Below, one piece after another: positions 11,529 through 32,760 of a stretch of 33,824 nucleotides of DNA. Source of the DNA: Steroidobacter sp. (GTDB taxonomy: Bacteria > Pseudomonadota > Gammaproteobacteria > Steroidobacterales > Steroidobacteraceae); NCBI GenBank assembly GCA_025929585.1, contig JAICPY010000041.1, positions 1-33,824 of the forward strand, in the 5' to 3' direction. The position numbers were made by a program, and so were the translations under genes. The notes under the pieces were generated by a model. That model saw only the letters and a program-made list of their open reading frames with translations, had not been told where the DNA came from and made no database searches. Numbering within the stretch: position 1 is the first letter of the stretch; every line of letters starts with the position of its first letter.

Positions 11529-11655
11529 GGCGATAGGGGATAGCGGATAGCGGATAGGGGATAGTGAGACTGGACAGGGATGATGATCGACGGTCGGATT
11601 GTTATAGAGTCCGGCGCCAGCTCCGAACTATCCCCTATCGCCTATCCTCTATCGC
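11529..11655. repeat. Inverted heptamer arrays in the ssb-miaB gap
   Basis: The left array (11531-11565) is five seven-base units of type GGATAG followed by C, G or T. The right array (11628-11655) is four units of the reverse complement (CTATCSC or CTATCCY). Read on the minus strand, the right array starts GGAAG then GCGATAG. The left array starts AGAAG then GCGATAG on the plus strand. The two arms match over about 33 bases apart from one extra unit and a few changes, and enclose about 62 bases of ordinary sequence with a TATAAC (minus strand, 11606-11601) that could serve miaB. The outer part begins 11 bases after the ssb stop. Confidence 0.85.
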
Positions 11656-11665
11656 CTTCCCTCGT

Positions 11666-12118
11666 CTAGAACGGAATATCGTCGTCGAACTCGCCCACAT
11701 CGGCGGCCGGAGGGGCGCTTCGATCCTCAGCAGGAGCTGATCGGGCCGGGCGAGGCTCGCCGCCACCCGCGCTTGCGCCGCCTCGACCACCGAGCATCTG
11801 CATGTCACGCGCGACGACCTCGGTCGAATAACGGTCTTTACCCTCTTTGTCCTGCCATTTGCGCGTTCGAAGGCTTCCCTCGATATAGACCTGAGAGCCC
11901 TTTCTGAGGTATTCGGCGGCGATCTCGCCCAATTTGTCGAACAATACGACGGTATGCCACTCAGTGCGTTCCTGCTGGTCGCCCGTTTGACGGTCTTTCC
12001 AAGACTCACTGGTGGCGATTCGAATATTGGTCACAGCCTTGCCGCTCGGCATATAGCGGGTATCCGGGTCCGCCCCCAAATTACCGACAAGGATGACTTT
12101 ATTGATGCCGCGAGCCAT
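11666..12118 (-). CDS. ssb: Single-stranded DNA-binding protein
   Basis: SSB binds single-stranded DNA as a tetramer during replication, recombination and repair and recruits partners through its C-terminal tip. The 150 residues begin [22 protein letters not shown], carry the OB-fold through about residue 110 ([20 protein letters not shown]), then a Gly/Pro/Ala-rich linker and the conserved acidic tip DDDIPF. It is divergent from uvrA, as in E. coli. I see no LexA-type SOS box of the E. coli form in the gap between them. Confidence 0.97.
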
Positions 12119-12207
12119 GTAGGACCCCTATTCCCAGGAAAGCCGCGATTGTAGACGGGGGAGGCCCGGCATAACAGGCGAATATCCGGCGCCTTATGCC
12201 ATAAACG

Positions 12208-12394
12208 CTAGCGGCTTTGCCGCAGGCGAGCCTATCGACAGGCAAGCGGGAGGACCCGCAGGCGAGCTGACGCTGTCAGCGGGCCGGAGCTGTGACGCCG
12301 TACCTCCAACCCTTCAAACACGCCCTCTGACCTAGTCTGGCCTGCCGTCAGGCTCGCCTGCCGTAGGCTCGCTGGCCGGCAAAGCCGGCTCGCC
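12208..12394. repeat. GC-rich inverted repeat with AGGCGAGCC / GGCTCGCCT copies
   Basis: The left arm (about 12208-12243) contains GCGGCTTTGCCGC and GCAGGCGAGCC. The right arm (about 12351-12394) contains the reverse complements GGCTCGCCTG (12351-12360), TAGGCTCGC and CCGGCAAAGCCGG. A second direct copy GCAGGCGAGC lies at 12258-12267, and a third inverse GGCTCGCC at 12387-12394. The arms pair imperfectly over some 35 bases around a spacer of roughly 110 bases. The layout is like that of the heptamer elements, but the word is longer and richer in GC; it could instead be a REP-type palindromic repeat. Confidence 0.7.
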
Positions 12395-12404
12395 CTCCTC
12401 GCCT

Positions 12405-12434
12405 TTGCCCCGCCCTGCTCCACCCGCTTATAGT
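12405..12434 (+). promoter_or_regulatory. Candidate uvrA promoter
   Basis: TTGCCC (12405-12410), an 18-base spacer and TATAGT (12429-12434) lie about 42 bases before the uvrA ATG. Both boxes fit the sigma-70 pattern moderately well. The leader then has no good Shine-Dalgarno sequence. Confidence 0.4.
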
Positions 12435-12475
12435 GTTCGGTCCTCCATTCGGACGGGCTTTCGGGCCCCGCCACT

Positions 12476-15331
12476 ATGTCCTCTTCCATTCTGATTCGCG
12501 GCGCACGCACTCATAACCTACGCAACGTCAATCTCGAATTGCCGCGCGAGAAGCTGATTGTCTTCACGGGCCTATCGGGTTCGGGAAAATCCTCGTTGGC
12601 ATTCGACACGATTTACGCAGAAGGGCAGCGCCGCTACGTCGAGTCTTTGTCGGCGTACGCGCGGCAGTTTCTCTCGGTAATGGAAAAGCCCGATGTCGAT
12701 ACGATCGAAGGATTGTCGCCCGCAATCGCGATCGAACAGAAATCGACCTCGCATAATCCTCGTTCGACAGTCGGCACTGTCACGGAGATTTACGATCATC
12801 TACGCTTGTTGTTTGCGCGTGTCGGTCAACCACGATGCCCGGATCACGGCGTGCCGCTGGAAGCACAAACGGTAAGTCAAATGGTCGATCAAGTCGTGCA
12901 GCTACCGGAAGGTACACCTGTGCTGTTGCTGGCGCCGATGATCGATGCCCGCAAAGGCGAGCACGCTCAAGTACTGGATCAGTTGCGCAGCCAAGGTTTC
13001 GTGCGCGCGCGCATCGACGGCAGAGTGGCGGAATTGGATGATGCGCCGAAGCTCGATCCGAAGAAGAAACACACGATCGAAGCGGTGGTCGATCGATTCA
13101 AAGTTCGTCCCGACGCCGCACAGCGAGCAGCCGAGTCCTTCGAGACGGCTTTGCGACTTTCAGATGGCATCGCACGCATCGCGTTCATGGATGAGCCGAA
13201 GCGCGAGGAGCTCGTCTTCTCGGATAAATTCGCATGCACGATTTGCGGCTACAGTCTCTCCGAGCTGGAGCCACGGCTTTTCTCGTTCAACAATCCTGCG
13301 GGCGCCTGTCCGGTCTGCTCCGGTTTGGGTGTGCAGCAATTCTTCGATCCGAATCGCGTCGTTCACCATCCTCACGTTTCGATCGCAGGCGGTGCGATCC
13401 GGGGCTGGGATCGGCGCACCACTTACTACTTCGCTTTGATGCAGTCGTTGGCGAAGCATTACAAGTTCGATGTCGAGACGCCCTGGGAAGAACTGGCCGA
13501 GAAGCACAAAAAAGTCGTCTTGTATGGCAGTGGCGAGGACAAGATCGATTTTCGCTATGTGGATGCGAAAGGCGGAACGATGCGCCGATCTCACAAATGG
13601 GAAGGCGTCATCCCCAATCTCGAGCGTCGTTATCGAGAGACCGAGTCCGTTGCGGTGCGCGAAGAGCTCGCAAAGTATCTAAGCAACCAGCCCTGCCCAG
13701 AATGTGGCGGTACGCGACTGAACAAGGCAGCCCGGCACGTCTTCGTCGCAGAGCGAACGCTGCCTGAGATCGCAGCGTTGGCCGTGGGCGATGCGCTGCA
13801 GTTCAGCCGTGATTTGGTGCTCGAAGGATGGCGCGGAGAAATTGCGGCAAAGATCATCAAAGAGATCTCTGAGCGGCTACGGTTCTTAAGTGATGTGGGA
13901 CTCGACTATCTGACGCTCGATCGCAGCGCCGAAACTCTCTCGGGCGGTGAAGCTCAACGTATCCGTCTGGCCAGCCAGATCGGCTCCGGACTAGTCGGCG
14001 TCATGTACATCCTCGATGAGCCCTCGATTGGCCTGCACCAGCGCGACAACGATCGACTATTACGCACACTCAATCACTTGCGAGATTTGGGCAACACGGT
14101 GATCGTCGTGGAGCATGACGAAGACGCGATCCGCCACGCCGATCATGTCGTGGATCTCGGTCCGGGGGCCGGAGTTCACGGCGGGCAGGTCATCTCGCAA
14201 GGCTCCCCCGAGCACATCGCGTCCGATCCAAACTCGATCACCGGGCAATATCTATCCGGGCAGCGATCGATCGCGGTGCCGGCAATGCGAACTCCGCCGC
14301 AGAAGGGCAATCATCTGCGCATCCTCAATGCGCGCGGCAACAATCTTCGCGGCGTGACGGTCGAGATACCGCTGGGCATCATGACGTGCGTAACAGGAGT
14401 CTCGGGTTCGGGTAAATCGACACTGGTGAACGACACGCTATATAGATATGTGGCCAGGACATTGAACGATGCATCGACGGATCCGGCGCCGAGCGATGGT
14501 GTCGAGGGATTGGATCAAATCGATCGAGTCATCGACATCGATCAAAGCCCGATTGGCCGCACTCCGCGCTCGAATCCCGCGACCTACACAGGATTGTTTA
14601 CGCCGATACGCGAGATTTTCTCTGCTGTACCGGAAGCACGAGCGCGAGGGTATGAGCCAGGCCGCTTTAGCTTCAACGTCAAGGGCGGACGATGCGAGGC
14701 CTGCCAGGGCGATGGCGTCATCAAGGTCGAGATGCATTTTCTTCCCGATGTGTACGTTCCTTGCGATGTGTGCAAGGGCTGCCGATACAACCGCGAAACG
14801 CTCGAAATCCGATACAAAGGCAAGAACATCAACGAAGTGCTCGAGATGACTGTCGAGGATGCGATGGAGTTCTTCCGCAACGCGCCCGTGATTGCGCCAA
14901 AGCTGCAAACTTTGATCGACGTTGGGCTCTCCTATATTCGCTTAGGCCAGAACGCGACGACCTTATCTGGCGGAGAAGCGCAGCGGGTGAAGCTTGCGAA
15001 GGAACTCTCGAAGCGCGCGACGGGCCGGACCCTTTACATCCTGGATGAACCCACCACAGGTCTGCACTTCCACGATATCGAACAGCTCCTGGGCGTCTTG
15101 CATCGTCTTCGCGATGAAGGAAACAGCATCGTTGTCATCGAACACAATCTCGATGTGATCAAGACGGCTGATTGGGTCATCGACTTGGGACCCGAAGGCG
15201 GCAACGGCGGCGGCATGGTCGTGGCAACGGGAACGCCCGAGGACATCGTCGCGAACCAAGATTCCTATACGGGCAAGTATCTAAAGCCGGTACTCGATAA
15301 GCTCCCCGCACCGAAGCGCAAGACTGCCTGA
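12476..15331 (+). CDS. uvrA: Excinuclease ABC subunit A
   Basis: UvrA is the damage-sensing ATPase of nucleotide excision repair; as a dimer it loads UvrB on DNA. The 951 residues match the family (940 in E. coli). In order: first Walker [10 protein letters not shown] (about 32-40), a zinc module with CTIC and CPVC (about 254-283), first ABC signature [16 protein letters not shown], second Walker [10 protein letters not shown] (about 641), second zinc module CEAC and CDVCKGC (about 740-770), and second signature [16 protein letters not shown] with [10 protein letters not shown]. It is divergent from ssb. The start at ATG 12476 ([13 protein letters not shown]) fits the family although no ribosome site is visible. 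Confidence 0.98.
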
Positions 15332-15373
15332 ACGATCGCGCTGTACTCCGTTCACTCGCTAGGACCCGTGTCA

Positions 15374-16036
15374 ATGCATGCACTCTGCTCTTTCAGCGGC
15401 GGGAAGGATTCCTGCCTCGCGCTCTGGCGCGCACAGCTACAAGGCTACGACGTGCGCGCTCTGCTGGTAATGTTCGAGGAAAGTGGCGAGCGTAGCCGTT
15501 CGCACGCGCTGCCGCTTTCACTGCTGAGCAAACAAGCGGACGCTTTGAATCTCGAGCTGGTGACACGACAGGCAAGCTGGTCGAGCTATGAAGCAGAGTT
15601 CACGAGCGCGCTACGCGAGTTCCGCTCCCGCAACTTCTCCACCGCAATCTTCGGCGACATCGATCTGCAACCGCATCGCGACTGGGAAGAAAAAGTGTGC
15701 GCGTCTGCGAATATCGAACCAGTATTGCCTCTATGGCACCAAGATCGACGCGAGCTCGCTCTGCAAGTGATCGACGCTGGATTTCGAGCCGTAGTCGTCT
15801 GCATCGATTCGCGCTACTTGGGCGACGAATTCTGCGGCCGTGAATACGATGCGGCCTTTATCGCGGATCTTCCCGAGGATGTAGACGCTTGCGGCGAAAA
15901 TGGCGAGTTCCACACTTTCGTTTACGACGGGCCGAATTTCAGCCAGCCAGTGCCGTTCGCAATCGAGGGTTTCGAGCCGTACGTGGCGCCCGCGGAGTTT
16001 GGGGGGACGAGGTATGTCTTCGCGAAGCTCAGGTGA
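15374..16036 (+). CDS. Dph6-related PP-loop ATP pyrophosphatase (DUF71 family)
   Basis: The fold is that of diphthine-ammonia ligase. Bacteria lack diphthamide, so the bacterial members have another, largely unsettled role; some are linked to cobalamin handling. The 220 residues show the PP-loop SGGKDS (8-13) for ATP and the family's C-terminal mark GENGEFHTFVYDGPNF. AGGA at 15361-15364 is nine bases before ATG 15374, so this is preferred to GTG 15368. It follows uvrA by 42 bases on the same strand and could be co-transcribed. Adenylating amide-forming activity is a family inference only. Confidence 0.85.
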   Translation: MHALCSFSGGKDSCLALWRAQLQGYDVRALLVMFEESGERSRSHALPLSLLSKQADALNLELVTRQASWSSYEAEFTSALREFRSRNFSTAIFGDIDLQPHRDWEEKVCASANIEPVLPLWHQDRRELALQVIDAGFRAVVVCIDSRYLGDEFCGREYDAAFIADLPEDVDACGENGEFHTFVYDGPNFSQPVPFAIEGFEPYVAPAEFGGTRYVFAKLR

Positions 16037-16050
16037 AGGAGCGATGGGAA

Positions 16051-16134
16051 GTGATGAAGGTGATGAAGGTGATGTAAGTGATGGAGGTAAGAGAGGCGCA
16101 TCTCCCTCTAACCTACATCACTTACATCACCTTC
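16051..16134. repeat. Inverted 9-bp arrays between convergent genes
   Basis: The left array (16051-16095) is five nine-base units: GTGATGAAG twice, GTGATGTAA, GTGATGGAG and GTAAGAGAG. The right arm (16105-16134) is the reverse complement of the last part, with GTGATGTAA and GTGATGTAG. About 29 bases pair with only two or three changes around a loop of ten bases. The left array starts 14 bases after the stop of the Dph6-like gene, and the right arm ends seven bases from the stop of the GNAT gene, so it may act as a two-way 3' end. The same word recurs at 20058. Confidence 0.85.
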
Positions 16135-16140
16135 AGTTCG

Positions 16141-16644
16141 TCACCTTGCCTTGCCCGACTTAAACACTTGCCGCACTTCTCCGTGCGCCACGGTTTCTCG
16201 GAACTGTCCGTTCGTGTATTCGGCGACAGTGGCACGCCAGAATTCGACGGCGGGTTTGTTGTAGAGGAATTCGGTGACCTGCCAAGTGCCGGCGAAGCGG
16301 TTGAAAATGAGCTTTGCAGCATCACGACCGACGCCAATTCGACGTGAACGCGAGGTAATGAAAAATTCAGCCATGCAAAAGTCCACGTGCTCGCGCTGAT
16401 TGCGCGGGGGGCGACTGACGAGGGCGAATCCCACAGGACGCTCCTCTTTGAGGATCACGAGGGGGTGCGCGCTGTCATCGGCGAACCAGCGGGCCATCAG
16501 CTCGGCTTCGCGCTCGCGATACGCCGGGAACATCCCGGTGTTCATGCTCAGATCGGACAAGTCGCTGAGATATTCCGGATACTGGCGCTGGATCCACAGG
16601 CGGTCCTGCGGGGAATTCTGGGCGTCTCGAATACTGACGGGCAC
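16141..16644 (-). CDS. GNAT-family N-acetyltransferase
   Basis: The 167 residues fit the GNAT acyl-CoA fold: an N-terminal helix pair, beta strands at HPLVILKEERPVGFALVSRPP, the central MAEFFITSRSRRIGVGRDAAKLIF whose RRIGVGRDA resembles the acetyl-CoA pyrophosphate loop, then FLYNKPAVEFWRATV as in motif B (N-x-x-A-x-x-F-W). The substrate is unknown. The start is GTG at 16644, the only start that keeps the first strand; an AGGAGG lies 25 bases upstream, farther than usual. It is convergent with the Dph6-like gene. Confidence 0.8.
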   Translation of the reverse strand: MPVSIRDAQNSPQDRLWIQRQYPEYLSDLSDLSMNTGMFPAYREREAELMARWFADDSAHPLVILKEERPVGFALVSRPPRNQREHVDFCMAEFFITSRSRRIGVGRDAAKLIFNRFAGTWQVTEFLYNKPAVEFWRATVAEYTNGQFRETVAHGEVRQVFKSGKAR

Positions 16645-16661
16645 CGCACTACCGGCTTGAC

Positions 16662-16838
16662 CTAGCCGCCTCCTGCCTCGGGATTTACTCCCGCTTCATC
16701 TTTCACGTCCAGGGTTTCGTTAACCTGCGACGCGGAGACGTTCTGCATGAGCCTACGCGAGTAGACGACTCTTGCACAATCAACAATAACATCACCTCTA
16801 AAGCGATCAGGCGGGCTTTCGCCCGCCTGATCTATCAT
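16662..16838 (-). CDS. Possible 58-residue small ORF
   Basis: A frame from ATG 16838 to TAG 16662 gives 58 residues, including DVIVDCARVVYSRRLM and SASQVNETLDVKDEAG. It begins eight bases after the lipoprotein stop and ends 17 bases before the GNAT start. Against it: no ribosome site, and the first 11 codons run through the terminator-like stem at 16805-16832. A shorter form from ATG 16748 has 28 residues. I do not recognise it. It may be chance. Confidence 0.18.
   Translation of the reverse strand: MIDQAGESPPDRFRGDVIVDCARVVYSRRLMQNVSASQVNETLDVKDEAGVNPEAGGG
16805..16832 (-). terminator. Terminator of the lipoprotein gene
   Basis: A perfect 12-base stem GATCAGGCGGGC / GCCCGCCTGATC with a four-base loop, 14 bases after the lipoprotein stop. 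On the minus strand it is followed by GCTTTAG, a poor T run, so it may depend on stem strength. Confidence 0.65.
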
Positions 16839-16846
16839 CACTGCAA

Positions 16847-17095
16847 TTACTGAGCAGGAGTCGGCTCAGTTGCATCGCCACCTTCAGCAGGCGCGGTTGC
16901 ATCAGGAGCCGTTCCATCGGCAGGAGGCGTGGTGCCGTCCATCGGAGCCGCGTCAGCTGGAGGTGCATCAGCAGGAGCGACATCGGCCGGAGGTGCAGTG
17001 TCAGTCGTTGCCTCGGCAGGAGCTTCGTCCTTCTGTCCGCAAGCGGCCAGCGACAGCGACATCATCAATGCAGCAAGAATTAGCTTCGTGTTCAT
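16847..17095 (-). CDS. Small Pro/Ala/Asp-rich lipoprotein
   Basis: The 82-residue product starts MNTKLILAALMMSLSLAACGQ: a short positive N-terminus, a hydrophobic core and a lipobox LAAC with Cys20, so it should be lipidated and membrane-anchored. The mature part is unstructured: repeats of APAD, PPAD and DGT with Pro, Ala, Thr and acidic residues, no Lys or Arg after residue 23. ATG 17095 is preferred to an upstream GTG-type start at 17158 because of the signal peptide and a GGGGTGG upstream. No function can be named; such peptides are often periplasmic spacers or stress-induced lipoproteins. Confidence 0.75.
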   Translation of the reverse strand: MNTKLILAALMMSLSLAACGQKDEAPAEATTDTAPPADVAPADAPPADAAPMDGTTPPADGTAPDATAPAEGGDATEPTPAQ

Positions 17096-17308
17096 GTGGT
17101 CTTCCACCCCTGTGAGTTTAATAACTGGCGAGTTGATAACGATGTATATAACACTCAAAGCGAAGGACAGTTCCTCCGTTAACAGCGCTATCGATTCTAG
17201 TGCGTTTCAGTTTCGTTTGAAACCAGTTATGAAGTCATCAGATCGAATCGATCGTCGATCATTTCGCGCGCCATTATTGCGCAAAGCTCGAAAATCGCTT
17301 TATTTACA

Positions 17309-18100
17309 GTGTATTTAGGGCTTGTCGCCTGCGCGCACACATCGCACATCGAACGAAGTATCGAAAATGCATGGCAAACAAATTCATCTATTCCACTTGC
17401 TCATGTTGTTGACGAAACATTGACAATTGAGCGCGCGTACGAGATTCAAACTCGCATCGTGCGCCGTGCTTTGCGCGATGCTAAGCCTGCTGGCTTCAAA
17501 GCTGGACTGACCTCCGCGCCATCTCGCGCGCGCTTTGGAGCAACGAATCCAGTCGCCGGCGTCTTACTCAAACCCGCGCACCTCACGCCGAGCAAGCTCG
17601 ATCTGAACGTACTGAAGGGCCTTTACATCGAAGTCGAAGTCGCGATGCGCCTTCGCACACCGGTCCGCACACGGCTCGCAAGCATCGATGAGCTCAAGTC
17701 GCACATCGATGGCATTGCACCGGCGATCGAGTTGCCGAATCTCGACTATCAGGATGCGCAGAAGCTCAATGCGTTGGATATCGTTGCCTCGAACGTCGCT
17801 GCCGCCTACTTCATTGTCGGATCGTTCGCGCCTGTTGAGGAACGCGATCCAAACGCAGTCAGCGCCACTCTCGAATGCGACGGTAAGGAGCTCAACGTGG
17901 GACAAGGTCACGACGCCATGGGCGATCAATGGGCTGCAGCGTTGTGGCTCGTAAATACGATGCTCGATCAAGGCTGGACCCTGGAATCCGGCCAGATACT
18001 GCTCACCGGCGCTTTGGGAAAAATGATTCGCGCACAACCGGGGCGTTGCTTGGCGGATTTTGGCGATTGGGGACGCTTGAACGTGCAAGTTTCGCAGTAG
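17309..18100 (+). CDS. 2-keto-4-pentenoate hydratase/fumarylacetoacetase-fold protein
   Basis: The sequence resembles the MhpD/HpaH hydratases and oxalocrotonate decarboxylases of aromatic meta-cleavage: KPAGFKAGLTSAPSRARFG, GLYIEVEVAMRL (the metal-ligand Glu pair), IAPAIELPNLDY, VASNVAAAYFIVG, and GQILLTGALGKMIRAQPG. The usual substrate is a 2-oxo-4-enoate. No other catabolic genes are near, so substrate and role are open. The start is uncertain. GTG 17309 gives 263 residues and begins YLGLVACAH. The frame stays open upstream to 17201 with KIALFTVYLGLVAC, which looks like a lipoprotein signal, but no standard start codon is found there. It is divergent from the lipoprotein gene. Confidence 0.72.
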   Translation: MYLGLVACAHTSHIERSIENAWQTNSSIPLAHVVDETLTIERAYEIQTRIVRRALRDAKPAGFKAGLTSAPSRARFGATNPVAGVLLKPAHLTPSKLDLNVLKGLYIEVEVAMRLRTPVRTRLASIDELKSHIDGIAPAIELPNLDYQDAQKLNALDIVASNVAAAYFIVGSFAPVEERDPNAVSATLECDGKELNVGQGHDAMGDQWAAALWLVNTMLDQGWTLESGQILLTGALGKMIRAQPGRCLADFGDWGRLNVQVSQ

Positions 18101-18189
18101 CAGGATTCTTGCCGTAGGAATCCCCGCGCTCGCCTGTTCTTTCCAGAATCTCTACACTGCTGGCGATCTCACGCGGCGAGCGCACCTTT

Positions 18190-19506: not shown

Positions 19507-19520
19507 CGGATGCGTTGAAA

Positions 19521-19637
19521 GACGTGTAGAGGTGGGATGTAGGCGTCCGAGGCGCTTCGCGCAGCGGTGCGTACACCCTCAAGCGCAACGCGCGGTCCGG
19601 CCTCTAGCGTCTACACCCTTTTACACCCCTACACGTC
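19521..19637. repeat. Inverted repeat arms between pepQ and mscL
   Basis: The left arm (19521-19546) begins GACGTGTAGAGGTGGG; the right arm (19602-19637) reads on the minus strand GGACGTGTAGGGGTGT, then TGTAAAAGG and GTGTAGACG, with a period near nine. Each arm follows the stop codon of one of the two convergent genes: 14 bases after pepQ and one base after mscL. The arms match with several changes around a 55-base spacer. Confidence 0.7.
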
Positions 19638-19638
19638 C

Positions 19639-20043
19639 TTACTGCCTCTTCAAAAGATCGCGAATCTCCTCGAGCAGCACCTCTTGCCTGGATGGCGGAG
19701 GCGGCGGTGCCGTCGGTGCAACCTCTTCCTTGCGTTTCAGTCGATTGATCATCTTGATCACCAGGAATATCGCGAATGCGACGATGATGAAGTCGAATGC
19801 GGTTTGAATAAACGCACCGTAATTGATCGTCACCGGATCCCGCCCTTCCTGCATCGCAGGTAGGGTCGCTTTCAAATCGATGAAATCCACTCCGCCGATC
19901 AAATATCCGAGTGGAGGCGTGATGATGTCGTTCACGAATGAGCTGACGATCTTGCCGAACGCAGCGCCGATGATGATACCCACCGCCATGTCTACAACGT
20001 TGCCTTTGACCGCAAACTCGCGGAATTCCTTTACGAAGCTCAT
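19639..20043 (-). CDS. mscL: Large-conductance mechanosensitive channel
   Basis: MscL forms a pentameric inner-membrane pore that opens under hypo-osmotic tension. The 134 residues (136 in E. coli) show the amphipathic N-terminal helix and TM1 ([36 protein letters not shown]), a periplasmic loop, TM2 ([18 protein letters not shown]), a Pro-rich linker (TAPPPPPS) and the C-terminal helix bundle ([14 protein letters not shown]). GAGGAA nine bases before ATG 20043 sets the start. Upstream in-frame codons are only the translated 9-bp repeat. It lies behind sthA on the same strand, separated by repeat sequence. Confidence 0.97.
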
Positions 20044-20057
20044 GGGTGAGATTCCTC

Positions 20058-20145
20058 GTGATGAAGATGATGGAAGTGACGAAGGTGATGAAGATGATGA
20101 AGCCAAGACGAGCAGCCAAGCTTCTTGGCCCATCGCTTACATCAC
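20058..20145. repeat. 9-bp arrays between sthA and mscL
   Basis: The left array (20058-20102) has five units: GTGATGAAG, ATGATGGAA, GTGACGAAG, GTGATGAAG, ATGATGAAG. The facing part (20128-20145) has two inverse units (GTGATGTAA, GCGATGGGC on the minus strand). Between them GCCAAG-CTT-CTTGGC (20115-20129) is a perfect small stem. The inverse units start seven bases after the sthA stop. The word is that of the element at 16051, four kilobases away. Confidence 0.8.
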
Positions 20146-20151
20146 CTTGTT

Positions 20152-21958: not shown

Positions 21959-21976
21959 GAGTCACGAGGGGGATCC

Positions 21977-24523: not shown

Positions 24524-24534
24524 ACGGACTACTG

Positions 24535-24564: not shown

Positions 24565-24660
24565 TGTGGACGCAGCATGTTGGCAGTTGACGGCCGACAC
24601 CCAGGGTAGGCGCTTCTGACCAACAGCGAACCCCCAATTCCCACTAAGTGCGATTCGTGT

Positions 24661-24674
24661 AGAGTTTTAACTCT
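24661..24674. promoter_or_regulatory. Perfect 14-base palindrome before apbE
   Basis: AGAGTTTTAACTCT lies 34 bases before the apbE start. It reads the same on both strands and could be an operator half-site pair for a dimeric repressor. The surrounding region has no clear -35/-10 pair, so this is tentative. Confidence 0.3.
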
Positions 24675-24708
24675 GTTCTCGTTGCATCAATCGCATCTCA
24701 CTAACACC

Positions 24709-25725: not shown

Positions 25726-25726
25726 G

Positions 25727-25806
25727 TCCGTGGTCTACAGTCTGCAGTCTGTGGCCAGAAAGACCGCATAAGACCCGCGCTTGCTCGCTCCCTGCGGACC
25801 GCGGAC
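25727..25806. repeat. Heptamer arrays after apbE
   Basis: Directly after the apbE stop are four seven-base units, GTCCGTG, GTCTACA, GTCTGCA, GTCTGTG (25727-25754). Two inverse units lie at 25793-25806 (GTCCGCA, GTCCGCG on the minus strand). The arms pair imperfectly over about 15 bases. The inverse units run into the terminator that precedes the rplQ stop. Confidence 0.75.
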
Positions 25807-25815
25807 TAAAAAAAA

Positions 25816-25838
25816 GCCGGGCTAGGCCCGGCTTTTTT
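25816..25838. terminator. Bidirectional intrinsic terminator between apbE and rplQ
   Basis: GCCGGGC-TAG-GCCCGGC is followed by six T on the plus strand and preceded by eight A, which become eight T on the minus strand. It should end both the apbE transcript and the ribosomal-protein transcript after rplQ. Confidence 0.93.
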
Positions 25839-25839
25839 C

Positions 25840-26448
25840 TCACTTCTTCGTGCTCTTCTTCTTCGCTGCGGCCTTTTTCTTCGGCGCTGCAGCTTTCTTG
25901 TGTGTCTTGGTTTCGGCTTTCTTGGCCTTCGCTTCGGCTTTCTGTTCGGCCTTTGCCTTCTTCGCCGCTTTCTCTTCGGCCGTCTTCACGGTCTTTTTCT
26001 TCGGCGACGCCTTCTTCGCGGCAGCCTTCTTCTTCGGAGCCTTCTTCTCGCCGTCCGCCTCGGCCGAAGCCTCGGACTGCTCCGCCATCGCAGGCTGATC
26101 GAGCAATTGCATCAAAGCCATTGGAGCCGCGTCGCCGGGACGAACATCCATACGCAGAATACGCGTGTAACCGCCCGGGCGAGCCTTGAAGCGCGGACCC
26201 AGATCTTCGAAAAGCTTGACCACCACTTCCGCATCACGGAGCTGCGAGAAGGCGCGGCGGCGGTTAGCGTCGCTATCAGCCTTACCCAATGTGATCAGCG
26301 GCTCGACGATACGGCGCAGCTCCTTCGCCTTCGGCAAAGTCGTGCGGATCGTTTCGTGCCGAATCAGCGAAGCTGCCATGTTGCGAAGCATCGCCCAGCG
26401 ATGCGGTGCGTTGCGGCTAAGCTGCCGGCCGGAGAGTTGGTGACGCAT
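25840..26448 (-). CDS. rplQ: Ribosomal protein L17 with long Lys/Ala-rich C-terminal tail
   Basis: L17 is a 50S protein at the exit-tunnel side of the large subunit. The first 120 residues are a normal L17 ([47 protein letters not shown]). From about residue 121 to 202 follows a low-complexity extension of about 80 residues made of KKAAAK, PKKK and [12 protein letters not shown] pieces, very basic and alanine-rich, similar in style to histone H1-like or AlgP-like tails. Most bacterial L17 proteins end near residue 120-130. It is the last gene of the alpha cluster, with a strong terminator eight bases or less after its stop. Confidence 0.95.
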
Positions 26449-26455
26449 TTTCTTA

Positions 26456-26538
26456 GTGACTCGTGAATCGTGATTCGTGATTCGCGGCGAATGCTGCGCA
26501 TTCTGACTAACCGCTAACCGCTAACCGCTAACCGCTTC
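26456..26538. repeat. Two different heptamer arrays between rpoA and rplQ
   Basis: In the transcribed (minus) sense the rpoA TGA is followed by AGAAG and four CGGTTAG-type units (26507-26534), ending TTAGTCAGA. Then a perfect small stem GAATGC-GCA-GCATTC (26489-26503) precedes four units of another word (GTGACTC, GTGAATC, GTGATTC, GTGATTC on the plus strand, 26456-26483). The second array stops just before the rplQ start. The arrays are not complementary to each other. Confidence 0.88.
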
Positions 26539-26539
26539 T

Positions 26540-27544
26540 TCAGATCAGATCCCTATCGTCGTCCCGCTTCAGACTAACTGGGGGCCAGTTGTCCAAACGC
26601 ATGCCGAGCGACAAGCCGTGACTTTCCAGAACTTCCTTGATCTCGGTGAGCGATTTCTTGCCCAGGTTTGGTGTACGCAGCAATTCCACTTCCGTACGCT
26701 GCACGAGATCGCCGATGTAGTGAATGTTCTCGGCCTTGAGGCAGTTCGCACTGCGCACGGTGAGCTCGAGCTCATCGACGGGGCGCAACAAGATCGGATC
26801 GAACTGTTGCTCCGCGGCCTTGGAAGCACCTTCATCTTGACCTTGCAGGTCGACGAACACGGACAGCTGATCTTTCAGAATTGAGCCGGCGCGGCGAATT
26901 GCTTCTTCCGCATCGATCGTACCGTTCGTCTCGATATCCAAAATGAGCTTGTCGAGGTTCGTGCGCTGCTCGACGCGCGCGCTTTCAACCGTGTACGTGA
27001 CGCGGCGAATCGGGCTGAACGAAGCGTCGAGCTGCAAACGGCCGATGGGCCCGCTCGATTCTTCGAACGTTGCACGCTGCACAGCCGGACGATAGCCGCG
27101 ACCGCGCTCGACTTTCAGCGTCATGTTGAGCTCGCCCGCTTTGGTCAAATTCGCGATGACCAAATCGCTGTTCAACACTTCCACGTCGTGGTCGAGCTGA
27201 ATGTCTCCTGCAGTGACAGGGCCAGGCCCCTTCTTGTGCAGGCGCAATTCGGTTTCTTCGCGCGCATTCAAGCGAATCGCGACTTGCTTCAAGTTCAATA
27301 GAATATCTACGACGTCTTCTTGCACACCTTCAATGCTGGTGTACTCGTGCAATACGCCATCGATCTCTGCCTCGGTGATTGCGCAGCCGGGCATGGAGGA
27401 CAGCAGCACTCGACGCAATGCGTTGCCCAAGGTGTGCCCGAAACCGCGTTCGAACGGCTCGATCACGACTTTCGCCTGCCGGGCGGTCGTGGGCGTAACT
27501 TTGACGACGCGCGGCTTCAGGAATTCGCCAACGGATGCCTGCAT
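26540..27544 (-). CDS. rpoA: RNA polymerase alpha subunit
   Basis: Alpha dimerises to start polymerase assembly and contacts UP elements and activators. The 334 residues (329 in E. coli) show the N-terminal dimerisation domain ([36 protein letters not shown]), an acidic linker, and the C-terminal domain with [44 protein letters not shown]. This includes the DNA-contacting Arg of [13 protein letters not shown] before ATG 27544 sets the start. A hairpin lies in the leader between rpsD and rpoA. Confidence 0.99.
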
Positions 27545-27580
27545 GGACCATTCACCTGCTTGTGTGCCGTAACGGCTGAC

Positions 27581-27602
27581 GCACTCGTCTTATTACGAGT
27601 GC
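27581..27602 (-). promoter_or_regulatory. Intercistronic hairpin between rpsD and rpoA
   Basis: GCACTCG and CGAGTGC pair perfectly around an eight-base loop 36 bases before the rpoA start, followed by a smaller stem GCCG-TTA-CGGC (27576-27566). The 99-base gap could host a processing site, an internal promoter or S4-dependent control. Confidence 0.4.
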
Positions 27603-27643
27603 AAAGAAAACCAGACCCAAACTAACCGACAAAAACCCAAGAA

Positions 27644-28267
27644 CTACTTCGAATACAGTTCCACAACCAGGTTTTCATTGATGTCCGGGAGAATCTCATC
27701 TCGATCGGGCAGTTGCTTGAACGTGCCGGAAAACTTCTTCTCGTCGACTTCGACCCAATTCGGGAAACCGACCTGAGCCTTGATCTGCATCGCTGTCTGG
27801 ATGCGCAACTGCTTCTGTGCCTTCTCGCGAACCGCGACAACGTCACCGGCCTTGCACTGATAAGACGGTATGCTGACCGTTTCGCCATTCACCGAAATCG
27901 CTTTGTGGCTGACCAGCTGACGCGCTTCGTTGCGAGTCGCGGCGAAACCCATGCGATAAACGACGTTGTCCAAGCGGCCTTCCAGCATCTGCAACAAGAG
28001 CGAGCCTGTCGCGCCTGGACGGCCCGAAGCCTTGATGTAGTAGTTGCGGAACTGACGCTCCAAAACACCGTACATGCGGCGCAGCTTCTGCTTCTCGCGC
28101 AGCTGCAATCCATAGTCGGACAGACGTCCGCGGCGCTCGCCCTTGATACCACCCGGCGGCACTTCGAGCTTGCACTTCGACTCGAGAGGCTTCACGCCGC
28201 TCTTCAAAAACAAGTCCGTACCTTCGCGGCGCGAGAGCTTGCATTTCGGGCCTAAATAACGAGCCAT
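27644..28267 (-). CDS. rpsD: Ribosomal protein S4
   Basis: S4 nucleates 30S assembly on 16S rRNA and in enterobacteria represses the alpha operon. The 207 residues (206 in E. coli) show the N-terminal [23 protein letters not shown], the S4 RNA-binding domain from about residue 95 ([31 protein letters not shown]) and the C-terminal [10 protein letters not shown]. The gap to rpsK is 18 bases without repeats. Confidence 0.99.
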
Positions 28268-28285
28268 GAATCTTCCTCGAAAAAA

Positions 28286-28705
28286 CTAGACGCGACGCTT
28301 CTTGGGCGGACGGCAACCGTTATGCGGTATGGGCGTCACGTCAGCGATATTTGTGATCTTCAATCCACAGCCGTTGAGCGCGCGCACTGCCGATTCACGG
28401 CCGGGTCCTGGACCCTTGACGCGCACTTCGACCATCTTCACGCCATGCTCTTGAGCCGCATTGCCAGCCTTCTCGGCTGCGACCTGCGCAGCGAACGGCG
28501 TGCTTTTGCGCGAGCCGCGAAAACCACAGCCACCGGAAGTGGCCCATGACAACGTGTTGCCTTGGCGATCCGTGATCGTGATGATCGTGTTGTTGAAGGA
28601 TGCGTGCACGTGCGCGATCGCGTCGGTCACGTGCTTCTTGACCTTCTTGCGGCCTTTCGTGCCGCCGGCGGCGGCGCCCTGTTGACCCTGTTTCTGCTCA
28701 GCCAT
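28286..28705 (-). CDS. rpsK: Ribosomal protein S11
   Basis: S11 lies on the 30S platform. The 139 residues include the conserved [48 protein letters not shown] and the tail [18 protein letters not shown]. The N-terminus is about ten residues longer than in E. coli and is Gln/Gly/Ala-rich ([18 protein letters not shown]). AGGAGAAG lies upstream of ATG 28705 and is also the flank of the heptamer array in front of it. Confidence 0.99.
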
Positions 28706-28718
28706 GTGTCTCTCTAGG

Positions 28719-28817
28719 AGAAGTGACTCGTGACTAGTGATTCGTGACTAGCAAGAGTGCTTCGGTTAATCGCTTTGCTGTTGACTAGCCACTACGATGA
28801 GCAACTAGCCACTTCTG
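28719..28817. repeat. Facing heptamer arrays between rpsM and rpsK
   Basis: On the plus strand AGAAG is followed by GTGACTC, GTGACTA, GTGATTC and GTGACTA (28723-28750). In the transcribed sense, just after the rpsM stop, AGAAG is followed by TGGCTAG twice (within 28783-28814) separated by TTGCTCATCGTAG. The array unit near rpsK overlaps its ribosome site (GGAGAAG). Between the arms lies about 30 bases with a weak GCAAG/CTTTGC stem. Confidence 0.82.
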
Positions 28818-28819
28818 TG

Positions 28820-29200
28820 TTACGCCTTGCCCGGCGGTGCGTTCATCTTCACGGCTGCCTTGCGCGGACCCTTGCGAGTACGTGCATTCGTGCGTGTGCG
28901 TTGTCCACGCAACGGCAAACCGCGGCGATGACGGATGCCGCGGTAGCAGCCTAGGTCCATCAATCGCTTGATGTTCATCGACACTTCGCGGCGCAGATCG
29001 CCCTCGACCGTGAGCTTGCCGATCTGCGTACGCAGAGCGGTGACTTCAGCCTCGGTGAGATCCTTCACCATGGTGTTGAGCTTGATGCCTGCGGCCTCGC
29101 AAGCCTTCTTGGCCTGCGTGTTGCCTACACCATAGATATGGGTGAGTCCCACCCATACATGTTTGTTCATCGGTATGTTGATACCGGCAATACGGGCCAT
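28820..29200 (-). CDS. rpsM: Ribosomal protein S13
   Basis: S13 forms an intersubunit bridge at the 30S head. The 126 residues begin [26 protein letters not shown] and end in the basic [35 protein letters not shown] about nine bases before ATG 29200 sets the start rather than the GTG nine bases further. It is the first alpha-operon gene in E. coli; here it lies 172 bases behind rpmJ, with a large hairpin element in the gap. Confidence 0.99.
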
Positions 29201-29272
29201 TGCGAGCACTCCCCGCGACGAAAAGCGCGGAACTGTAAACCAAAAAACCTAGTAACTCAATGCCTTAAGAAA

Positions 29273-29361
29273 GAAGCGGTTAGCGGTTAGCGGTTAGCGG
29301 TTAGCAAGGACGCCTTTTCGGGTCCTTATCTGACTAACCGCTAACCGCTAACCCCTGATCA
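29273..29361. repeat. Cruciform heptamer element between rpmJ and rpsM
   Basis: Four CGGTTAG units (29277-29304, preceded by AGAAG) face three CTAACCG-type units (29334-29354). A 20-base perfect stem (29285-29304 with 29334-29353) encloses an inner perfect stem AAGGAC / GTCCTT (29306-29311 with 29322-29327). In the transcribed sense the array follows the rpmJ stop after AGAAGTGATCAGG and ends TTAGTCAGA, as in the rpoA-rplQ element. It lies exactly where the spc and alpha operons meet. Confidence 0.93.
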
Positions 29362-29372
29362 CTTCTCGCCCT

Positions 29373-29486
29373 TTAGCCCTGCCTCTGCTTGTGGCGCGCG
29401 TCAGAGCAAATGACGTACACGACGCGGCGGCGACGCACGATCTTGCAGTTCTTGCAGATCTTTTTGACGGAAGCACGGACCTTCAT
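29373..29486 (-). CDS. rpmJ: Ribosomal protein L36
   Basis: This short gene encodes 37 residues, [20 protein letters not shown] to RHKQRQG. It is the zinc-binding (C+) type of L36: Cys11, Cys14, Cys27 and His32 form the ribbon. L36 binds 23S rRNA domain V/VI and stabilises the 50S subunit. GGGAGAG lies just before the ATG, itself preceded by a perfect hairpin (29499-29515). Its place between secY and rpsM is that of gammaproteobacteria. Confidence 0.97.
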
Positions 29487-29498
29487 GACTCTCTCCCA

Positions 29499-29515
29499 CG
29501 ATCGCCTTGCGATCG
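29499..29515 (-). promoter_or_regulatory. Hairpin in front of the rpmJ ribosome site
   Basis: CGATCGC-AAG-GCGATCG is a perfect seven-base stem ending 12 bases before the rpmJ ATG, directly before GGGAGAG. It could influence translation or mRNA processing. Confidence 0.4.
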
Positions 29516-29529
29516 CACCAAACCCTAGC

Positions 29530-29608
29530 TGCAGGCTCGAGGCTGGGGACTAGGTAGAGCGGTGTGCGGCTCTTCCCAGTCCCCAGCCCCTAGATCCTCC
29601 AGCCCCTA
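29530..29608. repeat. Inverted repeats between secY and rpmJ
   Basis: In the transcribed sense the secY stop TAG is the first part of TAGGGGCTGG (29599-29608), repeated at about 29583-29592. The arm GGGGCTGGGGACTGGG (29575-29590) faces GAGGCTGGGGACTAGG (29539-29554, plus strand), differing at two positions, around a 20-base loop. The period is mostly seven. It belongs with the other intergenic elements although the word is different. Confidence 0.78.
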
Positions 29609-30952
29609 TTGCGTCTGTCCTGGACGGCCGTAGCCGCGCAGATTCGCTTTCTTCATCAAGCCCTCGTATTGGTGCGACATCAGGTGCGCCGCGACCTGGG
29701 CTTGGAAATCCATGACCACCACCACGATGATCAGCAACGACGTGCCACCGAAGTAAAAAGGCACGCTGAAACGAGAAATCAGAAATTCGGGCAGCAAGCA
29801 CACGATGGTGACGTACAGGGCGCCCCAGACCGTGAGCCGTGTTAGCACCTTGTCGATGTATTCGCCGGTCTGCTGGCCTGGACGAATACCCGGAATGAAG
29901 GCACCTGACTTCTTCAGGTTCTCCGCCGTCTCACGCGAGTTGAAGACCAGCGCGGTGTAGAAGAAGCAGAAGAAAATGATCAAACCGCCGTACAGGACCA
30001 TGTGCGCCGGTTGTCCGGGCGTCATTGCTGCCGACACGCTTTGCAGCCACCCCATGCCGTCAGCCGTCCCCGACCAGCTGGCAATCGTTGCCGGAAACAG
30101 CAGCAAGCTCGACGCGAAGATCGGAGGGATCACGCCCGACATGTTCAGCTTGAACGGCAGATGAGTGCTCTGACCCGCGAACATCTTGCGGCCCTGCTGA
30201 CGCTTCGCGTAGTTCACTTGGATGCGACGCTGGCCCCGCTCGACGAATACGACGAACGCCGTGACCGCGATCACCATCGTGAACAGAATCAGCGCGAGAG
30301 CTGCGTGAATCTCACCCGTGCGCACCAATTCGAGCGTCCCGCCGATCGCCGAGGGCAGGCCAGCCACGATACCGGCCAAAATGATCATCGAGATGCCGTT
30401 ACCCAATCCGCGCTCAGTGATCTGCTCACCTAGCCACATCAAGAACATCGACCCGGCAATCAGCGTCGTAACCGCGACGAATACGAACTGCGGACCGGGA
30501 TTGATCACAACGCCCTGATTCTGAAATGCCACGGCAGCCGAGGCACCTTGCACCAACGCGAGAAACACAGTGCCGTAGCGCGTGTACTGCGTCAGCTTAC
30601 GTCGACCGGATTCGCCTTCTTTCTTGATCGCTGCGAGTTGCGGCACGACCACGGCCATCATCTGTACGATGATGGATGCGGAAATGTAAGGCATGACTCC
30701 CAAGGCGAAGATCGACAGTCGCTCGAGCGCACCGCCCGAGAACATGTTGAACATGTTGAGAATCGTGCCTTGCTGGTCCTGGAAGAACCGCGCGAGCGCC
30801 ACGGGATCGATGCCCGGCACTGGGATGAATGTGCCGACTCGATAGACGATCAAGGCGCCGATCAAGAAGAACAACCGCTGTCGCAGCTCTGCGAAGCGGG
30901 TCATCTCGCCGAAGGCCGAGATCGGTGCTGCGGTGGCGGACTTAGTGGCCAC
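29606..30952 (-). CDS. secY: Preprotein translocase subunit SecY
   Basis: SecY is the ten-helix channel of the Sec translocon. The 448 residues (443 in E. coli) show the plug-side start [40 protein letters not shown], the cytoplasmic loop with [30 protein letters not shown]-like [23 protein letters not shown], and a C-terminus ending [18 protein letters not shown]. The start is GTG at 30952. It follows rplO by 36 bases without a repeat. Confidence 0.99.
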
Positions 30953-30988
30953 GGATTCCTTACGCTGATGGATTACCGATGGGAGAAA

Positions 30989-31426
30989 TTAGGCTGTCTC
31001 GACCTTGCCGCCGGCAGCTTCGATAGCCGCGCGGGCACCTTTGGTGACATGCACGCCTTTGACAGTGATCGCCTTGCCGAATTCACCGGACGCAACGATG
31101 CGGGCGCGCAGAGCTTGAAGTGGGACCACATTTGCGGCCTTCAAGGACTCCAGATCCACCACGTCGGCTTTCACCTTCGCTAGTTCGGACAAACGCACCT
31201 CTGCGACGGTCGGAGCCACTTTGGAGCGAAAACCGCTCTTCGGCAAACGGCGCTGCAAAGGCATCTGACCGCCTTCGAAGCCGACCTTGTGATAGCCGCC
31301 CTTACGAGCGCGCTGACCCTTGACGCCGCGGCCGCAAGTCTTGCCCTGCCCGGCCGATGCACCGCGGCCGACGCGCAAACGCGTCTTCTTGCTGCCCGGT
31401 GCTGGAGAAATGCTGTTTAACTTCAT
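30989..31426 (-). CDS. rplO: Ribosomal protein L15
   Basis: L15 is a late-assembling 50S protein. The 145 residues (144 in E. coli) have the Gly/Arg-rich extended N-terminus ([39 protein letters not shown]) and the globular C-terminal part with [21 protein letters not shown]. The ATG at 31426 follows the repeat element behind rpmD. Confidence 0.99.
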
Positions 31427-31440
31427 AACTCGATTCTCTG

Positions 31441-31520
31441 GTTGACTGTTGACCGTTGCAGTTGGCGGTGGGAGCAGAAATCCTCTTCCTGCCGTTAACC
31501 GTCAACGACAACCCTCAACC
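31441..31520. repeat. Facing heptamer arrays between rpmD and rplO
   Basis: The plus-strand array is GTTGACT, GTTGACC, GTTGCAG (31441-31461). The facing array (31493-31520) reads in the transcribed sense GGTTGAG, GGTTGTC, GTTGACG, GTTAACG. The rpmD stop TGA (31515-31517) lies in the first of these units, so the last codons of rpmD are part of the repeat. Confidence 0.82.
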
Positions 31521-31712
31521 CTGTTCTTCCACCTTCAACAAGTGGTTCGATGCACGAATCATCCCGCGCACTTCCGGCGTGTCCGTGAGGACAGCGGTAT
31601 CGCGAATTCGGCGCAGGCCCAATCCACGGACCGTCGCGCGATGTGACTTGAGCTGACCGAAGGCGCTCTTCACGAGCGTGACCTTTACCGTTTTAGCTTT
31701 GGCGTTTGCCAT
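31515..31712 (-). CDS. rpmD: Ribosomal protein L30
   Basis: L30 is a small 50S protein of the alpha-beta fold. The 65 residues contain [54 protein letters not shown], slightly longer at the N-terminus than E. coli L30 (59). It lies between rpsE and rplO in the usual order; the gap to rpsE is 27 bases. The final QG and stop are inside a heptamer array. Confidence 0.98.
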
Positions 31713-31739
31713 GATCAGTTAGCCTCTCGTGCGGCGCAA

Positions 31740-32246
31740 TTAAGCCACGATCTCTTCGACGCGCTTACCGCGCTTCGCTGCGATATCGTCGGGTGATTGC
31801 GTGCTCGTCAATGCGTTCATCGTGGCGCGAACCACGTTGATGGGATTGCGAGAGCCATAGCTCTTCGCCAGAACGTTGCGCACGCCCGCACACTCGAATA
31901 CGGCGCGCATGCCACCGCCGGCGATCAGGCCGGTACCGTCTGCAGCCGGTTGCATGTAAACGCGTGTCGTGCCGTGACGCCCGCGTACCGCGTAATGCAG
32001 CGTTGCATTCTTGAGCGCAACCGTGGAGAGGTTCTTGCGGGCAGCTTGCATGGCCTTCTGGATGGCGACCGGCACTTCGCGAGCCTTGCCGTAGCCAAAG
32101 CCCACTTTGCCGCGGCCATCGCCGACGACCGTAAGCGCTGTGAAGCCGAACTGACGTCCGCCCTTCACGACCTTCGCCACGCGATTCACAGCAACCAACT
32201 TCTCGATGAACTCGTCGCTCGATGCTGTCTTTTCAACTCTGGCCAT
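31740..32246 (-). CDS. rpsE: Ribosomal protein S5
   Basis: S5 is a 30S protein with a role in decoding accuracy and RNA unwinding at the entry tunnel. The 168 residues (167 in E. coli) show the N-terminal double-stranded RNA-binding-like domain ([48 protein letters not shown]) and the C-terminal [42 protein letters not shown] 32246 lies about 45 bases after the repeat behind rplR. Confidence 0.99.
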
Positions 32247-32290
32247 TGCCTATTTCCTAACTTCAGAAAATGGAGCGGTAGCGACTCTGC

Positions 32291-32325
32291 CTATCCGCTA
32301 TCCGCTATCCGCTATCCGCTTCTAA
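32291..32325. repeat. Heptamer array between rplR and rpsE
   Basis: Four CTATCCG units (32291-32318); in the transcribed sense, AGAAG followed by four CGGATAG units and GCAGA, five bases after the rplR stop. It differs from the CGGTTAG array by one base per unit and has the same flanks. The opposite arm is reduced to AGCGGTAGCG (32275-32284). Confidence 0.88.
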
Positions 32326-32327
32326 AC

Positions 32328-32678
32328 CTAGAACTCCAACCCGTTCTCGCGCGCCGCATCGGCCAGCGCCTTGATGCGGCCGTGGAACTTGAAGCCCGAA
32401 CGATCGAAGGCCACTTGCGTAATGCCCGCTGCCTTCGCTCGTTCTGCGATCGCCTTGCCTACAGCGGCTGCTGCGGTCGCATTTCCCGTGTTCTTCAGTC
32501 CCTCGCGAACGTCCTTCTGCAAGGTCGACGCCGACGCGAGCACCTTCGATTGCGTGTCGAAAATCTGCGCGTAGATATGTTGCGGCGTGCGATGCACCGA
32601 CAATCGCAGAGCTTTGAGCTCGCGAATCTTGGCTCGGCTGCGCACTGCGCGTCTCAACCGTTGGGCGTTCTTGTTCAT
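32328..32678 (-). CDS. rplR: Ribosomal protein L18
   Basis: L18 binds 5S rRNA in the central protuberance. The 116 residues (117 in E. coli) show [39 protein letters not shown] and the C-terminal [24 protein letters not shown]. It lies between rplF and rpsE, with a heptamer element on each side. Confidence 0.99.
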
Positions 32679-32684
32679 AACTCA

Positions 32685-32760
32685 GTGACTCGTGACTAGT
32701 GACTAGTGACTCGTGATGGGTTGCTCATCTTTCGACCCGCGACCCGCGATTCTCGAATCA
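32685..32760. repeat. Facing heptamer arrays between rplF and rplR
   Basis: The plus-strand array is GTGACTC, GTGACTA, GTGACTA, GTGACTC, GTGATGG (32685-32719). The facing array (32733-32760) reads in the transcribed sense TGATTCG, AGAATCG, CGGGTCG, CGGGTCG, directly after AGAAG. The TGA of its first unit is the rplF stop codon, and AAGAAG encodes the last two lysines. A weak GATG/CATC stem lies between. Confidence 0.85.

Follow-up and report, generated by a model that had tools for sequence, protein, structure and literature searches.

What are the short tandem arrays that recur in the gaps between genes of Steroidobacter sp., and how did they come to stand there? The question is raised by a stretch of 33,824 nucleotides (positions 1 to 33,824 of contig JAICPY010000041.1, assembly GCA_025929585.1; hereafter the window), in which the original prediction had placed arrays of 7- or 9-bp words at twelve intergenic places between positions 11,529 and 32,760. 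We find that the arrays are real, abundant and genome-wide, and that the family is most plausibly a palindromic repeat, dispersed through the genome, whose tandem-word arms drift; it would then be a variant of known heptamer repeats.

Abundance and format of the arrays

The genome of the window (G000; 5,131,029 bp in 297 contigs) was sampled in two sets: a first set of the window and 20 stretches of 20 kb (433,824 bp), and a held-out set of 20 other stretches (392,600 bp) drawn after the format rules had been set. Both sets come mostly from contigs already matched by a repeat word, so that array densities are possibly somewhat high. To score arrays, the gaps between called genes were scanned for runs in which the sequence matches itself at a fixed lag; genes were called with a home-made hexamer scorer, which leaves their starts approximate, and were named, where scanned, from Pfam (the names rpsH and uvrA are our assumption). 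A coding repeat in rpmJ (at about 29,440) is included in the period, two-array order, stop, gap-orientation, arm-pair and best-match counts below, and arrays whose G and C counts are the same (6 of 138 in the first set, 2 of 109 in the held-out set) are excluded from the counts of polarity by strand, motif and stops.

At a score of 11, the 269 gaps of at least 40 bp in the first set held 60, 16 and 6 arrays of periods 7, 8 and 9, respectively, against 0, 0.2 and 0 in Markov shuffles (mean of five) and 0.3, 0.1 and 0.4 in length-scaled coding DNA. The held-out set gave 61, 9 and 4 arrays against 0, 0 and 0.1 in shuffles; thus, the expectation that the arrays would extend beyond the window and exceed chance was borne out across the sampled genome. 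The excess is limited to periods 7-9 and their multiples, and periods 4-6, 10-13, 15, 17, 19 and 20 yielded 0 or 1 array each in the first set. Both of the word lengths originally predicted, seven and nine bases, are enriched, but so is a period of eight, which had gone unlisted. Period 7 accounts for 98 of 138 period 7-9 arrays in the first set and 85 of 109 in the held-out set, with a median of 3.7 units per array (first set). Genome-wide, the pattern GGATAGCGGATAG has 113 matches, compared with 34 for the same pattern read backwards; three GGTTAGC units have 89 matches, overlapping ones counted; and the 9-bp word family occupies at least 40 loci, hand-counted from 71 matches (40 of 60 candidates scored).

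Two of the original generalizations were too broad. Arrays do not occupy most long gaps, being present in 97 of 257 gaps of at least 50 bp in the first set (16 of 59 at 50-99 bp, 52 of 103 at 100-199 bp and 29 of 95 at 200 bp or more) and in 77 of 244 in the held-out set. Nor do most stand as two facing arrays, since 62 of 98 array gaps hold one above-threshold array and 36 hold two or more, although weaker partner arms below threshold are often visible by eye in the one-array gaps.

The arrays keep to a strict format. Where a gap holds exactly two arrays, a G-rich array is followed by a C-rich one in 54 cases (29 in the first set and 25 in the held-out set), against one C-then-G, two G-then-G and four C-then-C orders in both sets together, so that the G-rich word reads inward. 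A motif, GYMAGA, lies at the inner end of the arm in 94 of 238 arrays (50/131 first, 44/107 held-out) and the outer side in only 9 (3/131 and 6/107). It was picked on the first set, which makes the held-out set the fair test; the coding rpmJ repeat is dropped from the figures on 131 arrays and is counted in the corresponding first-set total of 51/132. In the outer flanks, GAAGG, GAGAG and similar words are over-represented.

Among gaps of at least 50 bp, arrays are found in 28/46 (first set) and 23/40 (held-out set) of those between convergent genes, in 61/159 and 45/154 of co-directional gaps, and in 8/52 and 9/50 of divergent gaps, where they are depleted. They start near stop codons, the placement for which a check had been proposed, and their distance to start codons is more spread. 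Words that contain TAG or TGA raise the idea of a barrier that halts ribosomes arriving from either side in all frames. Indeed, 65/132 and 64/107 arrays have stops in all three frames of the G-rich strand, compared with 37.4 and 34.9 for permuted words (129/239 against about 72 expected over both sets), while the C-rich strand is stop-free in 111/132 and 95/107. We nevertheless regard such a barrier as quite unlikely: 36/239 arrays are without any stop, a three-frame stop occurs in 0/15 period-9 arrays, and single arrays in co-directional gaps (14 sense, 22 antisense and 2 undecided) have no sense 3' bias. In addition, the bias in stops may simply follow from the common descent of the words.

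Word variation and a probable drifting, dispersed family

The vocabulary of the arrays varies in a structured way. The 176 period-7 arrays of both sets reduce to 40 dominant 7-bp words, 35 of which join one component of single-base steps (42 edges). In null word sets of the same base composition the largest component averaged 8.6 words and never exceeded 18; in sets with similar dinucleotides it averaged 9.2 and never exceeded 21, with 0 of 100 sets reaching 35. Within arrays, variant bases are distributed in blocks (a mean of 2.5 runs against 3.2 expected, over 28 columns); for example, one array passes from GGGAATC to GGGAGTC to GGGAGTT along its length. This blockwise change is the pattern that would be expected from mutation followed by copying of units, for which replication slippage is a plausible route.

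The two arms of an element seem to be related through the family rather than through each other. Detected arm pairs have a common word in 22/32 cases, one of them the coding repeat, against 11% of random pairs, and the partner arm is the best match for just 3/69 arms. The two-arm copy thus looks like a trait of the family and not a product of local correction; a model of hairpin-templated correction between arms was rejected, as an arm resembles its partner no more than it resembles the remaining arms that carry its word.

Some words also appear in particular settings. In the genome of the window, long arrays of GTGACGG are found close to the limits of contigs (at the end of contig C35, at the start of C38 and near the start of C44), which suggests that long arrays may break the assembly. 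The same array word is found in six IMG/VR viral contigs (L185-L190).

We favour, at a probability of roughly 0.6, the reading that these arrays are the arms of a dispersed, palindromic family of intergenic repeats that drift by mutation and unit copying. The reading draws on the format, the genome-wide spread, the word network, the blockwise change, one presence/absence difference between genomes and some conservation of gaps, all of which are observed. The element is about 60-150 bp long (by eye). It opens with an outer edge rich in purines, often AGAAG; an arm and a variable spacer follow, and then the mirror image. An arm is about 26 bp (median, period 7), with three to four tandem words of 7 bp, less often 8 or 9 bp, and the G-rich strand pointing inward; in about 40% of cases its inner end has an exact GYMAGA box. 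Such elements may spread to new gaps in the manner of non-autonomous palindromic repeats and, once in place, may undergo point mutation and then whole-unit copying, probably through replication slippage, so that the spelling of the word would drift base by base while period, polarity and box persist. Insertions would survive where they are least harmful, that is, after stop codons and between convergent genes, and rarely in divergent promoter gaps. In ribosomal-protein operons, selection seems to have retained a small number of old copies. Among the roles initially suggested for the arrays, a non-autonomous dispersed element is the best fit, given the many-copy word families and a gap that is empty in three relatives.

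Relatives and known repeats

That gap, at position 16,040, is a clean presence/absence difference, and it is the one such case that the proposed comparison of orthologous gaps brought to light. Its length is 104 bp in the genome of the window, 1 bp in G008, 10 bp in G002 and -26 bp in G013.

Across the genus, three GCGGTTR units occur in 7 of 14 genomes, with 212 matches in G008, 158 in G000, 51 in G012, 20 in G006, 11 in G007, 8 in G003 and 1 in G011 (overlapping matches counted). G003 and G012 have no period-7 arrays in their samples, yet have these 8 and 51 matches genome-wide. GTGACGR units are found in 3 of the 14, and in an order-wide draw of 196 genomes, which did not include G008, three GGTTAGC units were present only in G000. 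The box carries over to G008, where GYMAGA accompanies 13 of 26 scored arrays (12 of 24 without a coding repeat that had scored and a double-counted gap) and the boxed arrays include words outside the dominant set of G000, such as CTGGCTG. At individual loci, the miaB-ssb gap has scored arrays of different words in G000 and G008, and the mscL-sthA and rplF-rplR gaps have other words in other species, partly read by eye. The unusual pairing of two words in the rpoA-rplQ gap of G000 has a similar counterpart in G008; since the word GGTTRGC is common in G008, the array may have been renewed in that genome. A tree built from SecY, RpoA and nine ribosomal proteins (11 proteins in all) supports the order of the main groups weakly (0.175 and 0.371), and therefore does not decide between gain and loss of the arrays.

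In other taxa, period-7 or period-8 arrays of other words (score 12) lie within about 8 kb of rplO at 5 of 80 named loci (L030, L032, L061, L062 and L077), with CGAGCTT as one such word, from Litchfieldella, and GCAACAG as another, from an Alcaligenaceae genome.

The ribosomal-protein gaps may point in a different direction, namely to functional intercistronic elements under purifying selection, which would preserve their format and, among old copies, their sequence as well, for instance as spacers that shape translation or the handling of transcripts between adjacent genes. Three gaps, rplF-rplR, rpsM-rpsK and rpmD-rplO, are equal in length in G000 and G013 (79, 114 and 88 bp) and align end to end with 66/85, 93/120 and 67/94 identities. 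At rplF-rplR, where the alignment is without an indel, the arms are identical at 22/25 and 27/30 positions, compared with 8/18 in the loop and 501/1073 (47%) at the four-fold sites of the genes in the cluster. Gene conversion from a pool of copies is unlikely to explain this, because G013 has one weak further match (26 bases) to the gap. The comparison covers, however, just a few orthologous gaps, all from a single gene cluster; the right arms abut start codons and would be constrained anyway, and of the three gaps only rplF-rplR still scores as an array in G013. At five other gaps of the window, moreover, the element of G000 is mostly lacking from the relatives. Purifying selection on function is thus a possible explanation of the family, to be held tentatively. 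A broader version, in which selection maintains a rule (period 7-9, inward G-rich polarity and inner GYMAGA) while the vocabulary drifts, so that the element would act as a general both-strand insulator between neighbouring genes and be kept for long periods even in ribosomal-protein operons, appears rather unlikely to us.

Several observations weigh against the drifting dispersed repeat that we favour. About 60% of arrays are without an exact GYMAGA box, and in G394, a distant genome, the box accompanies 0/3 of a set of GGGAATC arrays. Seven of the 14 genus genomes are without a GCGGTTR match, so that calling the arrays one family is a reading and not a phylogeny, and at the other gaps of the window most of the relatives compared have no scored array. 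The old ribosomal-protein copies keep their gap length at about half four-fold identity, which is unlike active slippage at those places. Finally, neither a mobilising enzyme nor a target-site duplication nor a spreading mechanism was found, and no such arrays flank the sole Y1 transposase gene that the search of G000 yielded.

The last point bears on the idea that the arrays are of REP/BIME type and owe their movement to a RAYT (Y1) transposase. Y1 matches are present in G000, G002, G005, G006, G008 and G010, and the palindromic pairs, intergenic location and convergent bias of the arrays resemble those of BIMEs, which are dimers of REP sequences (PMC3733652). A Y1 gene of G008 is also flanked by palindromes with 8-bp doublets. 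On the 4,285-bp contig that carries the Y1 gene of G000, however, the sole array found is a 24-bp stretch of a 9-bp repeat about 1.5 kb away; G013 has arrays in its sample and no Y1 match, and G010 has two Y1 matches and one period 7-9 array in its sample, a coding one. We consider a RAYT origin very unlikely. It was rejected after a search for Y1 genes in 30 genomes and inspection of the flanks of 11 matches, in which the genes did not track with the arrays. The tetramers GTAG and CGTC are outside the top enriched 4-mers in a count made on the array flanks; some words of the arms do contain GTAG.

Two further observations concern the Y1 loci themselves. In G008 (L192), REP-like pairs of GGTGCCGGGCCGCGGGTTCGCGGGTT...AACCCGCGAACCCGCGGCCCGGCACC palindromes surround the gene at 1735-1805, 3060-3105, 4080-4105, 4550-4650 and 7075-7190, with a similar arrangement in G002 (L196). 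The Y1 contig of G000 (L191) appears by eye to contain part of the gene, with its flank, a second time as an incomplete copy (676-873 and about 2560-2760).

Repeats of this general kind are not unprecedented. The suggestion that no named element has this structure was too strong, as facing heptamer arrays of one word family have been described in Xanthomonas (Rehm et al., 2015; PMC4692102). The G-rich heptamers of that study are GGGAATC in Xanthomonas and GGGGA(C/T)T in Nostoc; in Xanthomonas the family occurs as 70 and 75 convergent pairs, close to stop codons and seldom between divergent genes. The arrays of G000 are alike in their 7-bp tandem unit, mostly intergenic location and about four units, and in their convergent facing pairs (54 G-then-C, 1 reversed and 6 of one polarity). 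They differ in their words: AATCGGG is dominant in just 2 of 176 period-7 arrays, so that the GGGAATC or (GGGANTN)n word does not define them, and words such as GTTGACG and AGTCTGC have no GGG run. Moreover, the Xanthomonas and Nostoc repeats are one word family chosen for quadruplex runs, whereas G000 has 40 dominant words in the sampled stretches, periods of 8 and 9 as well, and the GYMAGA box.

Other systems match in part. Marine Beggiatoaceae have direct repeats of TAACTGA (MacGregor, 2015; PMC4679880) that are likewise 7-bp and intergenic, carry stops in three frames on one strand and in some cases lie by ribosomal-protein genes, but they consist of one word, mostly upstream of start codons, and are reported as 169 direct sets and one indirect repeat, so that facing arms are not their plan. 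In Nostoc, the P6b stem of the tRNA-Leu intron (PMC4476775) contains heptamer repeats on both sides of the stem, where one repeat class replaces another in place, as words do here; unlike in G000, this is a single locus in a group I intron, treated as RNA structure. REP/BIME elements share with the arrays of G000 a dispersed, intergenic distribution of palindromic pairs, both homo- and heterodimers (PMC3733652), and differ in two respects: tandem repeats make up the arms in G000, and a search for a linked transposase found none. A satellite survey (PMC6749651) and a triplex paper (PMC4666352) were also consulted. No description of a many-word family of facing arrays was met in the literature searched, which was mostly without subscription papers and is weak evidence of novelty.

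The STRR elements of heterocystous cyanobacteria are dispersed tandem heptamers of several words. We know of no facing arms or inner box in them.

Elements of the window

Nine of the twelve places originally listed carry arrays at a score of at least 9 (11529, 16051, 20058, 25727, 26456, 28719, 29273, 32291 and 32685). The remaining three, at 19521, 29530 and 31441, fall below this cut-off; by eye they resemble degenerate members of the family.

Five elements lie outside the co-directional ribosomal-protein stretches. The gap between ssb and a miaB-like gene (named by Pfam) holds facing arms of GGATAGC/GGGATAG at 11528-11564 and 11628-11653 (element 11528-11653; RNA fold z -5.9). Between two convergent genes, one of which (16141-16644) matches no Pfam family at 1e-5, the element at 16051-16131, which is the one empty in three relatives, has arms of the 9-bp word GTGATGAAG at 16051-16088 and about 16114-16131 (the latter by eye). 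A degenerate element with a CGTGTAGA-like word and a long hairpin (by eye) extends over 19521-19637 (z -4.0). The gap between mscL and a pyridine-nucleotide oxidoreductase gene has a 9-bp word with a left arm at 20058-20102 and a short right arm at about 20136-20149 (by eye; element 20058-20149, z -4.4). Finally, the apbE-rplQ gap has AGTCTGC with a right arm degenerate by eye (25733-25808, z -3.2), followed at about 25808-25840 by a separate T-tailed hairpin (by eye).

Seven arrays or array-like hairpins stand between co-directional ribosomal-protein, rpoA or secY genes. In the rpoA-rplQ gap (26456-26536), GTGATTC at 26456-26484 faces GGTTAGC on the minus strand at 26507-26536 (z -0.32), and in the rplF-rplR gap (32680-32757) a GTGACTC arm at 32680-32716 is paired with a CGGGTCG arm at about 32733-32757 (z -0.44); the arms of these two elements are of different words, and their hairpins are no better than those of shuffled sequences. 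The rpsM-rpsK gap (28723-28815) has a GTGACTC left arm at 28723-28751 and a degenerate GTGGCTAG right arm at about 28783-28815 (by eye; z -2.0). Between rpmJ (named by Pfam) and rpsM, which we take from E. coli to be the boundary of the spc and alpha operons, GGTTAGC arms at 29275-29305 and 29334-29353 give the strongest of the 12 folds (29275-29353, z -10.2). The secY-rpmJ gap holds a degenerate GGGGACTAGG-like hairpin (29534-29593, by eye; z -5.4), the rplO-rpmD gap a degenerate GTTGACC element with one arm scoring 8 rather than 9 (31440-31521, z -2.6), and the rplR-rpsE gap a single minus-strand GGATAGC array at 32291-32320, with no partner arm seen (z -2.9).

These folds bear on a role as bidirectional transcription terminators or hairpins at RNA 3' ends, both of which had been proposed. 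In support, 7 of the 12 window elements fold strongly (z -3.2 to -10.2), and the enrichment in convergent gaps reported above is what such a role would favour. Against it, five of the seven co-directional elements have a weak hairpin or none (z -0.3 to -2.9), with two folding strongly (-5.4 and -10.2), compared with -3.2 to -5.9 for the remaining five elements of the window, a contrast noticed post hoc in only 12 elements. A run of at least six T in the following 10 nucleotides is found after 1 of 46 strong inverted repeats of array gaps, and one canonical terminator overlaps an array; together with the seven elements inside co-directional stretches, this speaks against terminators. Nor do the arms appear to be maintained as RNA, as their sense-strand mismatches (24 G.T and 30 A.C) have no G.U excess, a count that uses the 25 co-directional inverted repeats, of 29 counted, that lie in array gaps. 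Rfam 15 gave no match in the window above the gathering score. A terminator or RNA-hairpin function is, in our estimation, quite improbable.

A different inverted-repeat element is visible in the ssb-uvrA gap (12190-12420), rich in GGCGAGCC and containing a 16-bp doublet, without heptamer arms.

If the favoured reading of a dispersed, drifting repeat is true, about a thousand gaps of one genome would document how the words of tandem repeats arise and drift within one family, a figure extrapolated from 175 array gaps in 826,424 bp to 5.13 Mb, from contigs mostly preselected by a word match. The question of why bacterial tandem repeats favour seven bases would then become testable in one genus with both array-rich and array-poor species, and the copies kept in ribosomal-protein operons would need explaining.

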